This document shows positions 47,329 to 60,763 of a stretch of 64,000 bases of DNA, in pieces. The stretch spans positions 668,217-732,216 of the forward strand of contig JAOPJY010000001.1 of NCBI GenBank assembly GCA_025517425.1. The letters are read 5' to 3'. Every line of letters begins with the position of its first letter. The stretch's first letter is position 1. The stretch comes from Halobacteria archaeon AArc-dxtr1 (GTDB lineage: Archaea; Halobacteriota; Halobacteria; Halobacteriales; Natrialbaceae). Under the pieces are notes generated by a model that was not told the origin of the DNA, ran no database searches, and worked only from the letters and a program-made list of their open reading frames with translations. Made by a program: the position numbers and the translations under genes.

Positions 47329-47988
47329 CTACTCCCTCACCGGAATCCAGCCGCTGCTGGCGTCCTCGTCCCGAAGGTGCCAGCGCTGCTCGTACCCCGT
47401 TTCGCTCGCACGCACGTCGACCGTCGCATCGAACAGCGGCTCGAACAGCGACACGAGCTCGTCGTCGGAGTCGACATCTATGTGGACGTGGCCCATGCCG
47501 GCGGCGTGTTTGACCCGCGACGTGACCGCGTGAAGGAGGCGAAACAGCCCCTCGACGTCGTGGGCAGCTGTCGCCGCCTCGAGGCCGTCTATGCACACGC
47601 GAAGCTGCCCTGCCGAAACGCCACCCGCCTGCTCGTCGAATCCGTCGACCGCCGTGACGATCTCGGCCCCGAGACGGCCAAGCGGGTCACCCCCATCCGT
47701 CTCGCGGTCGACGATTGCGGCGTACGAAAGTGTCTGCGTACGAGTTGCGTCGGCGTGGCCATCAGTCAGAGCGGCGCGCCCGTCCCCCGCTTCGCCCGTC
47801 GGATCCAGTGAGACGAACAGTCGATACCGGGGTCGGCACGTCGAATCTCCGTCGAGCCGGCGACAGAGCACGTCGTGTCGCGTCGTCTCGCCGACCAGTA
47901 ACACGTTGCTGCCGCCCGCTTTGAGCGAATCGAGCGCTCGTGCGAACGAGAGTTTCTCACGGGCGACATCCTCTCGGTCGGACTCCAT
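47329..47988 (-). CDS. DUF7504-type RecA-fold protein
   Basis: A 219-residue protein of a family common in Halobacteria. It carries GGSNVLLVGETTRHDVLC near the N-terminus, which resembles a degenerate P-loop region, and later IDGLEAATAAHDVEGLFRLLHAVTSRVKHAAGMGHVHIDVD, a RecA-like order. No ATPase motif is fully conserved, so nucleotide binding is uncertain. Two starts are possible (48024 or 47988); 47988 leaves room for both divergent promoters. It is divergent from the coiled-coil gene. Confidence 0.6.
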   Translation of the reverse strand: MESDREDVAREKLSFARALDSLKAGGSNVLLVGETTRHDVLCRRLDGDSTCRPRYRLFVSLDPTGEAGDGRAALTDGHADATRTQTLSYAAIVDRETDGGDPLGRLGAEIVTAVDGFDEQAGGVSAGQLRVCIDGLEAATAAHDVEGLFRLLHAVTSRVKHAAGMGHVHIDVDSDDELVSLFEPLFDATVDVRASETGYEQRWHLRDEDASSGWIPVRE

Positions 47989-48084
47989 TGGAACCGAGAG
48001 GATGTTGTACTGACACAATAACATTGTGATAGACCTCGCGCAATGGACCCTCAGCTTTTCACGTCCGCCTTCGTAGGTGGGCGT

Positions 48085-56127: not shown

Positions 56128-56946
56128 TTAGTGAAGAATCGACTGTGCCACCGAGGCGAGTTGGCCGTTGTCGGCCTCCTGGAGGCGCTCGTCGCCGATT
56201 TTCAGTCGGAGGCGGGGGCGTCCGACGTCGATCGGCACCTTCTCCGTGTCGATCAGCCCCATATCCTCGAGTTTCGTCTTGGTCCGGCTAAAGGTCGCCT
56301 TGCTGGCGATACCGACGTCCTCGCCCCACTTGCTGATGTCGTACAGCAGCGCCTCGTTTTTCGCAGCGACCAGCAACGAGATGGTGACCTCGTCTAGCCC
56401 GTCGCCGTCGCCGCGGGCAGTTTCGAGGGAGTTTAAGATCGTGGTAAAGTCGGCCTCGGCGTCGGGGCCGATTTCGTCAGCGAGCGTCTCTTTGACGTCC
56501 GTTATCGGCGGCGTGCGGAGATTGTACACCTCAGCGTCTTCCCACTGGCGCTCGTAGGTGTCGGAAACGTCATCGACGAAACTCTCGTCGTCCGTCGTCA
56601 GCCCGCCGACGCGGTCGCCAGCGGGAACGATTGCGACGACCTGCTCGTCGGTGACCAGTAGCGAGTTCTCCGGTGGCTCGCTCAAAATGCGCAGCGATAA
56701 CGTTCCGTCGCTGACGAGGTCTGCGGCGTTCGAAGCGACGATGAAGTCGCCAAGGACGTCTTTTAGCATCCGCTCGTCGGCGAGGAGGCGAACTGAGATC
56801 TGCTCGTCGTCGATGTCAGCTGCGACCGGGATCAGCGCCTCGATCGCGTTGCGCGACGGATTGATTAGAGAGACGGTCCCACTCGCGTCTTCGAGCACCT
56901 GCTGGAGAATATCGTCAATCTGGTGGTTGAGTAAATTCGAGCACAT
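56128..56946 (-). CDS. tbsP: TbsP-like transcriptional regulator (DUF5821 type)
   Basis: A 272-residue haloarchaeal regulator. The N-terminal 100 residues, MCSNLLNHQIDDILQQVLED, then SVRLLADERMLKDVLGDFIVASNAADL, form an alpha/beta domain; the C-terminal 60 residues hold a winged helix (SKATFSRTKTKLEDMGLIDTEKV). TbsP of Haloferax volcanii acts with TrmB on gluconeogenic gapII. The N-terminal domain is the conserved part and its signal is unclear. Its 333-base AT-rich upstream region fits a strong promoter. It lies between the CHAT gene and rnp3, all on the minus strand. Confidence 0.75.
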   Translation of the reverse strand: MCSNLLNHQIDDILQQVLEDASGTVSLINPSRNAIEALIPVAADIDDEQISVRLLADERMLKDVLGDFIVASNAADLVSDGTLSLRILSEPPENSLLVTDEQVVAIVPAGDRVGGLTTDDESFVDDVSDTYERQWEDAEVYNLRTPPITDVKETLADEIGPDAEADFTTILNSLETARGDGDGLDEVTISLLVAAKNEALLYDISKWGEDVGIASKATFSRTKTKLEDMGLIDTEKVPIDVGRPRLRLKIGDERLQEADNGQLASVAQSILH

Positions 56947-57279: not shown

Positions 57280-59337
57280 TTAGCCCGTAAACAGTCCCGA
57301 GAGTTCGCGCGACCAGTGGACATCTCCGTCGTAGATTACGGCGACTGCAGACTCCGCGAGGAACTCCCGTAACTCCGACTCCTCGAGGAGAATACTGGCG
57401 GCCGTGCCACAGAGGTAGGCGTACTCATCCTGTTGATCGTGCGGAACGTAGTACGACCCCGCCGTCCGCGGGGAATAACAGTCAAACGTTAGCAGATATC
57501 GGCCGTCGTCGGTGGGCTCGACGCTCACCGAGACGGGAAACGTCGACTGGCGCTGAGTCAGTGAATGAGTCCCGTCACCGACGACGGCGTAATCCTTTCC
57601 CATCATGATCCGGCGTCGGGCCAGACGCAACGCGCGCTCGAAGCTAAAGCCGTGAACGAGCAGCTTCGCGAACGTCGAGCCGACTTTGAGGGCGTGTTCG
57701 TTCAACACCTCGTTTACCGTAACGGCGCCGGCGACGCTCCCACGTTCGATCAGCTCCATTCCCTCGTAGTAGGAGCCACAGGCATTCAAGAAGAACGTCT
57801 GCGTCGAACAGCGATCGAGCGACGTCGCCGAGAGCGTTCCGTCGGCACACTGGAGGCCGCCAGTCTCGCAGTGACCGATGTAGTGGACGAAGTCGTGTCC
57901 GGATTCGAAGACGCGAGCGAGCTGTGCCGTGGTGAGCGACTCAGTGACCGAGAGGTCGATCCTAATCGACTTCGCCCGCTGGCGGTAAATGTCTGTGACG
58001 GAGACACGCTCCCCGGTCATCGCCGGATCGTTGAGAACGACGCAGATCGACGTCGACTCGTCTGCGCGCTCGAGGTAGGTAAACCGATTCCGGTAGGCAG
58101 CCGGATGGGACGTAAAGACGTCGATGGGGACGCCGTCTGCGAGCCAGCCGTGGACGCGTCCCGTTCGAAGTTCGGGTTTGACCACGTCGACCGACGGGGC
58201 GTTTCGCGATCGTCCGGTTCGAGCCGGCGCCCGGTAGAAGGCGTCGAGCGATCGGTCGATCAGCTCCCGCCCCTCGAGCGTCGAGGTGCGTGGCATGTAG
58301 ATGAGACTCATTCTGTCGAGCAAGAACGGGAGCGTTGCGAGGCGACTCGGCTCCGGTTTGACGTACGTCGCTAGGTGCCAGTCGGGCAGCCGGTGTTCGA
58401 TCGCCGCATCCGGAACTTCGAGGTAGCTCGCGAGGCGAGTCTGTGGCTCCGCCCGGTAGAGAGTCTCACTATCGAGATCCAGCGCCCGCAGGATGCTCAG
58501 TTCCGAGAGTGGCGCATCGTGTGGTCCCTCGTTACGGACGAGACAGTCGAGGAAAAACACCTTCCTGAGGAGCCTCGCAGCCGACTCCTCGAGTCGGCGA
58601 TCAAACCGGGCGGTGATTCCCTCGTCTCGAAGCCGAATTCTGGGTGGCCCGGTGGCGCCGAGACGTACTGATGCCTGGAGGAAGTACGCGAGAGGTGCCG
58701 TACAGTACAACGCTTCGTAGGTCGGGGGAACGACGAGTTCGATGCCAGTAGTCGCCGTTTCATCACGAACCGACTCGGGAATCTCGAACTCGTCGCCGAG
58801 TTCGAGTAGTGGCGGATGACCGCGTTTTGTCGGATACGTTCGGTTCGGCGTCTCCGTCTCGACGGCCGCGTGAAGATGACCGATCGCTGCGGCGACATCG
58901 GCCGGTGATTCGGTGACGGTGATCGTCTCGGTCGGTAGCTCGTAGTGACTCCGCAGACCGATCGCGACGTCTCGACGGTTCGGAAAGGAGATGCGAACAG
59001 AACGACCGTCCTCGGTGTGGGAAATCGTCGCTGCCCCGGAAAACTGGAGGTAGATTTTGACGGCAGCATCAACGTCGACGACGTACTGCGCTGGCGGTAG
59101 CGACAGCGACCCATCGACCGGGTCGAGTTCGTACCGCCTGCCGTCCGCGGCGAACGCGTAGACGACGGCGCGAGGAACTCGAAGCGTTCTAGTAACGGCG
59201 TTGATCGTCTCGTCGACTGGGCGATCGATCGCTGCGCCCGATCCGCCGGCGACGAGATCGGGCCCCTCGATGGTGATCTCGGTGCTGTCTGCATCGACGA
59301 CGGTGATGACGCCGTCGCCGCCCTCCCACCGCAGCAT
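57280..59337 (-). CDS. CHAT-domain (caspase-like) protease, haloarchaeal
   Basis: A 685-residue protein starting MLRWEGGDGVITVV at ATG 59337; a TTG three codons earlier is less likely. The last 250 residues are a CHAT-type caspase fold: FVHYIGHCETGG, with His489 the likely catalytic His, and TFFLNACGSYYEG, with Cys520 as the nucleophile. The first 400 residues have beta-rich and helical segments with no family I recognise. CHAT proteases (separase/gingipain clan) cut after specific residues. No gasdermin, TPR or CRISPR partner gene is adjacent. A TATA-like ttaattag lies 25-30 bases upstream. Confidence 0.82.
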   Translation of the reverse strand: MLRWEGGDGVITVVDADSTEITIEGPDLVAGGSGAAIDRPVDETINAVTRTLRVPRAVVYAFAADGRRYELDPVDGSLSLPPAQYVVDVDAAVKIYLQFSGAATISHTEDGRSVRISFPNRRDVAIGLRSHYELPTETITVTESPADVAAAIGHLHAAVETETPNRTYPTKRGHPPLLELGDEFEIPESVRDETATTGIELVVPPTYEALYCTAPLAYFLQASVRLGATGPPRIRLRDEGITARFDRRLEESAARLLRKVFFLDCLVRNEGPHDAPLSELSILRALDLDSETLYRAEPQTRLASYLEVPDAAIEHRLPDWHLATYVKPEPSRLATLPFLLDRMSLIYMPRTSTLEGRELIDRSLDAFYRAPARTGRSRNAPSVDVVKPELRTGRVHGWLADGVPIDVFTSHPAAYRNRFTYLERADESTSICVVLNDPAMTGERVSVTDIYRQRAKSIRIDLSVTESLTTAQLARVFESGHDFVHYIGHCETGGLQCADGTLSATSLDRCSTQTFFLNACGSYYEGMELIERGSVAGAVTVNEVLNEHALKVGSTFAKLLVHGFSFERALRLARRRIMMGKDYAVVGDGTHSLTQRQSTFPVSVSVEPTDDGRYLLTFDCYSPRTAGSYYVPHDQQDEYAYLCGTAASILLEESELREFLAESAVAVIYDGDVHWSRELSGLFTG

Positions 59338-59360: not shown

Positions 59361-59369
59361 CTAATTAAC
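59361..59369 (-). promoter_or_regulatory. TATA-like box of the CHAT gene
   Basis: The minus strand reads ttaattag about 25-30 bases before the ATG at 59337. This fits a leaderless haloarchaeal promoter. Confidence 0.5.
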
Positions 59370-59509
59370 TGTATCGGATGGTGATTAGTATTAGTTTCAA
59401 AGGAAGGCCGCGGCAAAAACCGCCACCGACGGGCCGGAGAGTGCCACGAGACCGTCCTCGCTCGGCGAAGAGAGGTACACTTATGAACGATCCAGCCACC
59501 AGCCCACAC

Positions 59510-60763
59510 ATGGAACACGACCACGTCCGGGCCGTCGACCCTGCGGTAGCCGACGCCCTCGAGGCCGAAGTCGACCGGCAGCGATCGTCACTCCAGATGA
59601 TCGCCAGCGAGAACCACGTCAGCCGCGCCGTTCTAGACGCCCAGGGCAGTGCTCTAACGAACAAGTACGCCGAGGGGTACCCCGGCTCGCGCTACTACGG
59701 CGGCTGTCAGTACGCCGACGAGGTCGAACAGCTCGCGATCGACCGCGCGACGGAGCTGTTCGGCGCCGAGCACGTCAACGTCCAGCCCCACTCGGGCACG
59801 CAGGCCAACCAGGCCGTCTACTTCGCGATGCTCGAGCCCGGCGACAAGATCCTCTCGCTCGATCTAACCCACGGCGGCCACCTCTCTCACGGCCATCCCG
59901 CGAACTTCGTCGGTCAGCTCTACGACGTCGAGCAGTACGAGGTCGACCCCGACACCGGCTACGTCGACTACGATGGCCTCGCCGAGCAAGCCGCCGAGTT
60001 CGAGCCCGATATCATCGTCTCGGGCTACTCCGCGTACCCGCGAGACATCGACTGGGAACGCATCCAGGAGACCGCAGACGACGTCGACGCGCTCCACCTC
60101 GCCGACATCGCCCACATCACCGGGCTCGTCGCCGCTGGCGTCCACCCCTCGCCGGTCGGCATCGCCGACTTCGTCACGGGAAGCACACACAAGACCATTC
60201 GCGCCGGCCGTGGCGGCATCGTCATGTGCGACGAGGAGTACGCTGACGACGTCGACGCTGCCGTCTTCCCCGGTGGCCAGGGCGGCCCTCTCATGCACAA
60301 CATCGCCGGCAAAGCCGTCGGCTTCGAGGAGGCGCTCCAGCCCGCGTTCGAGGAGTACGCAGAGCAGACCGTCGCCAACGCGAAGGCGCTGGGCGAACAG
60401 CTCACAGAGCACGGCTTCTCGCTCGTCTCCGGCGGCACCGACAACCACCTCGTGCTCGTCGATTTGCGCGAGAGTCACCCCGACACCTCCGGTGGCGACG
60501 CCGAGGAAGCGCTAGAGGACGCCGGCATCGTCCTGAACGGAAACACGGTCCCCGGCGAGACGCGCTCGGCCTTTGACCCCTCGGGCATCCGCGCTGGCAC
60601 GCCCGCGCTGACGACCCGCGGCTTCGACGAGGACGACTGTCGCACGGTCGCCGACCTGATCGCCCGCGTCGTCGACGCCCCCGAGGACGAGGCCGTCATC
60701 GCGGACGTGCGCGAGGGAGTCGAGGCGCTGTGTGCCGCGAACCCGCTTTACGAAGACGCGTAG
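59510..60763 (+). CDS. glyA: Serine hydroxymethyltransferase
   Basis: A 417-residue PLP enzyme converting serine and a C1 carrier to glycine and a methylene-C1 carrier. Signatures are LQMIASENHVSRAVLDAQ, the PLP lysine segment GSTHKTIRAGRGG, and HSGTQANQAV. The start is taken at MEHDHVRAV; an in-frame ATG lies nine codons upstream at 59483, but its position coincides with a TATA-like cttatga at -27 to -33 of the chosen start. The product feeds FolD, also in this window (63278). It is divergent from the CHAT gene. Confidence 0.95.
   Translation: MEHDHVRAVDPAVADALEAEVDRQRSSLQMIASENHVSRAVLDAQGSALTNKYAEGYPGSRYYGGCQYADEVEQLAIDRATELFGAEHVNVQPHSGTQANQAVYFAMLEPGDKILSLDLTHGGHLSHGHPANFVGQLYDVEQYEVDPDTGYVDYDGLAEQAAEFEPDIIVSGYSAYPRDIDWERIQETADDVDALHLADIAHITGLVAAGVHPSPVGIADFVTGSTHKTIRAGRGGIVMCDEEYADDVDAAVFPGGQGGPLMHNIAGKAVGFEEALQPAFEEYAEQTVANAKALGEQLTEHGFSLVSGGTDNHLVLVDLRESHPDTSGGDAEEALEDAGIVLNGNTVPGETRSAFDPSGIRAGTPALTTRGFDEDDCRTVADLIARVVDAPEDEAVIADVREGVEALCAANPLYEDA

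Follow-up and report, generated by a model that had tools for sequence, protein, structure and literature searches.

Haloarchaeal proteins with a predicted caspase fold related to CHAT proteases and separase

The CHAT proteases with solved structures, SAVED-CHAT and Csx29, serve CRISPR-linked defence (PMC11229360, PMC10028731). SAVED-CHAT (PDB 8tl0) is a type III CRISPR effector. Csx29 is the TPR-CHAT protein of Craspase, and its protease region is separase-like, consisting of a pseudo-caspase and an active caspase (CHAT1-CHAT2) (PMC10028731). A pair of a pseudo-caspase and an active protease is also present in separase (C50), and two caspase-like subdomains are present in gingipain (C25). Strong caspase-like activity has been described in extracts of Haloferax volcanii, and archaeal genomes are said to have no clear caspase homologues (PMC3615174). 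No gene was assigned to the haloarchaeal caspase-like activity in the literature that we found, this paper included. We also found no paper that mentions DUF7504 or that discusses the CHAT domain in connection with haloarchaea or Haloferax.

We analysed a gene in the window, a stretch of 64,000 nucleotides from Halobacteria archaeon AArc-dxtr1. The open reading frame lies on the minus strand at positions 57280-59337, with the ATG at 59337 and the stop codon at 57280-57282. It is coding, and its product has 685 amino acids. The initial annotation had placed this reading frame here, with a histidine and a cysteine motif of the CHAT type at residues 489 and 520, and both residues are indeed found at these positions. 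The gene belongs to group A, one of two clades formed by the family in Halobacteriales; the other clade is group B. The features of the locus are as follows.

56128..56946, minus strand: tbsP, encoding a transcriptional regulator; synteny kept in 90 of 100 group A loci
57280..59337, minus strand: group A caspase-fold (CHAT/separase-like) protease gene, 685 amino acids
57283..57552, minus strand: residues 596-685, C-terminal alpha/beta extension (predicted model)
57553..58062, minus strand: residues 426-595, predicted active caspase-fold domain, aligned with SAVED-CHAT
57778..57780, minus strand: codon of Cys520, LNACGSY motif, predicted catalytic nucleophile (conservation)
57871..57873, minus strand: codon of His489, HYIGHC motif, predicted catalytic residue (conservation)
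58063..58752, minus strand: residues ~196-425, probable pseudo-caspase half without a dyad, approximate extent
58753..58905, minus strand: residues 145-195, conserved link in which R166, P169, R172 and P175 are invariant or nearly so (RxxPTxRGHPP)
58912..59337, minus strand: residues 1-142, N-terminal beta-sandwich, weak structural resemblance only (galactose mutarotase-like, Z 8.8, borderline)
59363..59377, minus strand: conserved upstream element, here CCGATACAGTTAATT, about 26-40 nt before the ATG
59378..60763, plus strand: ORF of glyA (serine hydroxymethyltransferase); divergent neighbour, synteny kept in 97 of 100 group A loci

An AlphaFold2 model was built from an alignment of 55 sequences (mean pLDDT 84.5, pTM 0.84). 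The best match in a Foldseek search of the PDB was SAVED-CHAT (E 4.5e-8), with gingipain and separase also among the best. VIA-align 2 aligned model residues 319-596 with gingipain RgpB (Z 20.5, 2.7 A, 241 residues), 426-595 with SAVED-CHAT (Z 18.7, rmsd 2.3 A, 169 residues), 328-596 with separase (Z 17.6, 3.4 A, 221 residues) and 328-592 with Csx29 (Z 13.9, 3.6 A, 219 residues). In the predicted model residues ~426-595 take the caspase fold. His489 comes after the beta strand 483-487 and Cys520 after the next strand of the core, 514-518, which is the clan CD arrangement. Thus the defining traits of CHAT proteases, a caspase-like fold with the histidine after one core strand and the cysteine after the next, are seen in the predicted model, the fold searches and the conservation of the dyad. 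The initial annotation had proposed a CHAT caspase-like protease, with a caspase fold to be expected at residues ~430-600, and a comparison with separase and gingipain, and the alignments bear out this fold.

Judging by the points where the alignments start, the part preceding the active domain is probably a pseudo-caspase half comparable to those of separase, gingipain and Csx29. Most gingipain, separase and Csx29 alignments start at residues 318-337, and some separase and Csx29 alignments at 152-210. Residues 318-425 match gingipain and separase well, residues 196-317 are assigned by the order of secondary structure elements and a few alignments, and we infer an extent of ~196-425 for the half. 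The N-terminal 326 residues alone gave no Foldseek match at E <= 0.001. With VIA-align they gave only borderline beta-sandwich matches (the galactose mutarotase-like protein listed above), and residues 145-320 were barely covered; at this Z, a fold relation of the N-terminal beta-sandwich to that protein is not claimed. Thus the first ~400 residues, initially described as unrecognised, retain this description in the beta-sandwich, and lose it in the probable pseudo-caspase half.

At the sequence level the family lies below the curated CHAT model. Pfam CHAT (PF12770) matched 13 of 35 members at E <= 10, the best at 5.7e-4. The search of the window protein with this model, proposed in the initial annotation, gave no match, and at the cut-off of 24 bits nothing passed in the 11 genomes scanned. 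The model had no match in the control genome of Haloferax volcanii, but as it equally misses the Haloferax genomes that carry a family gene, this negative is uninformative. Pfam peptidase C25 (PF01364) matched one of the 35 members weakly (E 0.0014) and did not match the window protein. One chance-level Pfam row apart, Pfam, NCBIfam and PADLOC assigned the window protein to no family, and sequence searches of the PDB, both single-sequence and profile, returned nothing relevant. The name CHAT is therefore valid for the fold and the motif, and not in the sense of the curated sequence model. Two of the 25 plasmid copies nevertheless bear the annotation 'CHAT domain-containing protein' or 'caspase family protein'.

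The window protein shares with SAVED-CHAT the active caspase-fold domain and the His and Cys motifs. However, Pfam and fold searches gave no sign of a SAVED domain in its N-terminal part, and no CRISPR or CBASS gene was recognised near the gene. With Csx29 it shares the order of pseudo-caspase and active caspase, but the place of the TPR region is taken by the N-terminal beta-sandwich, and neither Cas7-11 nor Csx30 is found nearby. The link of the CHAT family with TPR, gasdermin or CRISPR, which is common but not required, is not seen here: the protein has no TPR match, and none of the three was found among the scanned neighbours, as already remarked in the initial annotation. The pair of pseudo-caspase and active caspase is that of separase in the predicted model. 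However, the window protein lacks the large helical N-terminal repeats, having ~142 residues of beta strands instead, it is far smaller, and no kleisin-type target or securin is known. Gingipain, with its two caspase-like subdomains, gives the highest Z of all; on the other hand, the identity is 10%, the C25 model matches the family only in the single member mentioned above, and the window protein sequence has no sign of a secretion signal. Our preferred explanation, which as a whole we hold to be somewhat more likely than not, is that the gene product would be a CHAT/separase-type cysteine endopeptidase of clan CD, located in the cytoplasm.

Across the 147 aligned haloarchaeal members (100 of group A and 47 of group B), His489 and Cys520 are conserved without exception. 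The same holds for N436, D437, E443, H485, C497, N518 and S522. The dyad is also kept in three of the four methanogen members described below. Together with the clan CD arrangement in the model, this makes the His and Cys motifs real, and neither observation named in the initial annotation as fatal to it, the lack of a caspase fold or of a conserved dyad, was made. We consider it very probable that the window protein is an active endopeptidase.

The remaining methanogen member (locus L187:7040-9100) has Arg in place of the histidine and Asp in place of the cysteine, and the rest of the fold is kept. By its sequence this homologue is a natural dead enzyme, and thus the fold can serve without catalysis. 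One possibility is that the caspase fold of the family binds a peptide or a partner and signals, as a scaffold or sensor in which catalysis is secondary or absent. The signalling context of group B, with DUF7504, HalX response regulators and large HTH-type regulators, is consistent with such a role. However, the dyad with N518 and S522 around the cysteine, invariant in the haloarchaeal members, is hard to account for without catalysis, and we regard this possibility as quite unlikely.

In the predicted model D437, which lies 52 residues before the histidine, is the last residue of the first strand in the active domain. Three methanogen members have Glu at this position, which we take to be the one where gingipain RgpB and metacaspases have the S1 aspartate. 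As an invariant acidic residue sits at the presumed S1 position, by analogy with the related enzymes cleavage would most likely occur after a basic residue, Arg or Lys at P1. The same residue argues against cleavage after Asp, as in caspases (C14). Residue 525 (codon 57763-57765), five positions after the catalytic cysteine, is Glu in 96 of 100 group A members and Gln in all 47 group B members, possibly reflecting a difference in specificity between the groups.

Exactly one family member is present in each of 15 genomes of the genus Haloferax. The genus was assigned from plasmid DNA of Haloferax alexandrinus, which matches all 15 genomes, nine at 94-95% and the rest at 79-83%; the assignment holds at the genus level, and does not show Haloferax volcanii itself to be included. 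With one member per genome and an activity lacking an assigned gene, the family might be the source of the caspase-like (P1 Asp) activity of Haloferax volcanii, acting as a general stress or maintenance protease; this activity is blocked by zVAD-FMK and has been reported from several haloarchaea. However, caspase-like activity is reported in Sulfolobus and Pyrococcus too, and P1-Asp activity may come from proteasomes. We think that the family is a natural candidate for the activity but not its likely source, because D437 predicts Arg or Lys at P1; that the activity comes from the family seems to us very unlikely.

A single-sequence search detected homologues without internal stops in 134 of 149 related genomes. 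A profile search found the family in 364 of 392 Halobacteriales genomes; thus 93% of the sampled genomes of the order carry an archaeal caspase-fold family that has an intact dyad and falls under the Pfam CHAT cut-off. The GTDB contig collection contains 501 stretches encoding a relative. The tree sets apart group A, group B and the methanogen members, each by one branch (SH-aLRT 98, 99 and 100). The source genome contains one group A and two group B copies. Group A is missing from a part of the order, as Haloferax genomes have a group B copy only. Outside Halobacteriales, a homologue was observed in all four genomes of one methanogen family of the same phylum, presumably Methanocellaceae (Methanocella paludicola, M. 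arvoryzae). The profile match of these homologues ends at about position 620 and does not cover the C-terminal extension. In all four methanogen loci the genes for UPF0146, a RimI-like acetyltransferase, DnaG and dihydroorotase stand beside the protease gene. The inheritance is near-universal and mostly vertical.

The neighbours of group A genes were counted within 8 kb in 100 loci, some of them clipped by contig ends. In most of them the gene keeps a fixed place between tbsP and glyA, and genes for SBDS, proteasome alpha and an RNase P component occur in 44-46 of the 100 loci. Neither tbsP nor glyA hints at a mechanism. No defence gene was recognised near the group A protease, either by PADLOC or among the scanned neighbours. 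A neighbouring HflX gene was considered as the defence gene LeoA and rejected, as the PADLOC match is a GTPase cross-match. In the closest 39 loci the mean identity to the window proteins is 58.5% for the protease, 86.7% for GlyA and 77.4% for TbsP. The faster evolution of the protease is compatible with conflict or co-evolution with a changing target no less than with housekeeping.

The main rival to the preferred explanation is resident defence, in which the protease would sense infection and cut host targets, stopping the virus or killing the cell like bacterial CHAT proteases. The CRISPR-linked role of SAVED-CHAT and Csx29 and the rate of group A evolution are compatible with it. So are the expansion of group B, of which some genomes have several copies (as many as 15 matches in a single genome), and its presence on plasmids (25 records). 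However, the group A locus is fixed in the core and has no recognised defence neighbour, gasdermin, TPR, SAVED and CRISPR genes do not adjoin the protease, and the HflX cross-match is the only PADLOC match to the protease or its neighbours. Moreover, near-universal vertical inheritance is unusual among defence genes. The viral contigs searched contain no family member. The link with bacterial defence implied by the initial annotation is thus not supported, and we consider a defence role unlikely. Three genomes (G164, G143 and G171) show an expansion of the family, with 10-15 matches each.

A role in housekeeping or stress regulation, and not in defence against viruses, is in our judgement the most likely one, with the protein acting as a regulated, site-specific, vertically inherited cysteine endopeptidase. 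The support that we count for it consists of the invariance of the dyad, the fold model, the near-universality, the synteny of the core locus, the separation of the clades in the tree, the pairing with DUF7504 described below, and the lack of a viral relative. The active domain would pack against the non-catalytic pseudo-caspase half, and the N-terminal beta-sandwich would probably bind a partner, a ligand or a substrate. The protease may be held inactive until the N-terminal part or a partner senses the state of the cell, and once activated it may cut one or a few specific host proteins. If its role is housekeeping, the family would be a non-immune prokaryotic relative of separase-type proteases.

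In most of the Natrialbaceae shown, the protease ATG is preceded at a distance of about 25-40 nt by the element CCGATACAnCTAACT. Its conservation supports the start at 59337 and fits a leaderless transcript beginning near the ATG. An exact copy occurs in the source genome only at the protease gene; accordingly, the element was rejected as the mark of a regulon and is read as probably the core promoter of the leaderless transcript. In Halorussus and Haladaptatus it is replaced by GAAATATAA-type boxes.

A DUF7504 gene (PF24336) was found within 1.5 kb of 22 of 42 group B genes, as opposed to none of 100 group A genes. The collection of homologue neighbours suggested in the initial annotation thus gave a partner gene for about half of the group B loci, and no recognised defence gene for group A. 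Most commonly the DUF7504 gene directly precedes the protease gene on the same strand, the two being 50-100 bases apart. As the genomes checked have 0-13 DUF7504 genes each, chance adjacency is estimated at about 1%. Other neighbours of group B are HalX response regulators and large HTH-type regulators. Weak Pfam matches tie DUF7504 to KaiC-like (KaiC/RecA-like) ATPases, and the copies read appear to have no intact Walker A motif.

All five Haloferax loci examined belong to group B; in each of them DUF7504 precedes the protease on the same strand, about 50 bases away. As Haloferax is genetically tractable and its single family gene shares an operon with DUF7504, both the role of the family and the question of the caspase-like activity are open to a single deletion. 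Tentatively, the near-universal haloarchaeal protease with its separase-type pair of pseudo-caspase and caspase might work in core physiology (cell cycle, stress, protein turnover), uncoupled from immunity, with group B and DUF7504 as a two-gene module in which the KaiC-like protein is either the gate of the protease or its substrate.

Three of the four methanogen genomes have a DUF7504 gene about 10 kb from the protease gene. The window itself contains a DUF7504 gene at 47329-48024 on the minus strand, 9.3 kb from the protease gene. A second chromosomal locus of the source genome (L053:6030-8814) encodes a group B paralogue with DUF7504 just upstream, which overlaps the longest ORF of the paralogue or adjoins its true start.
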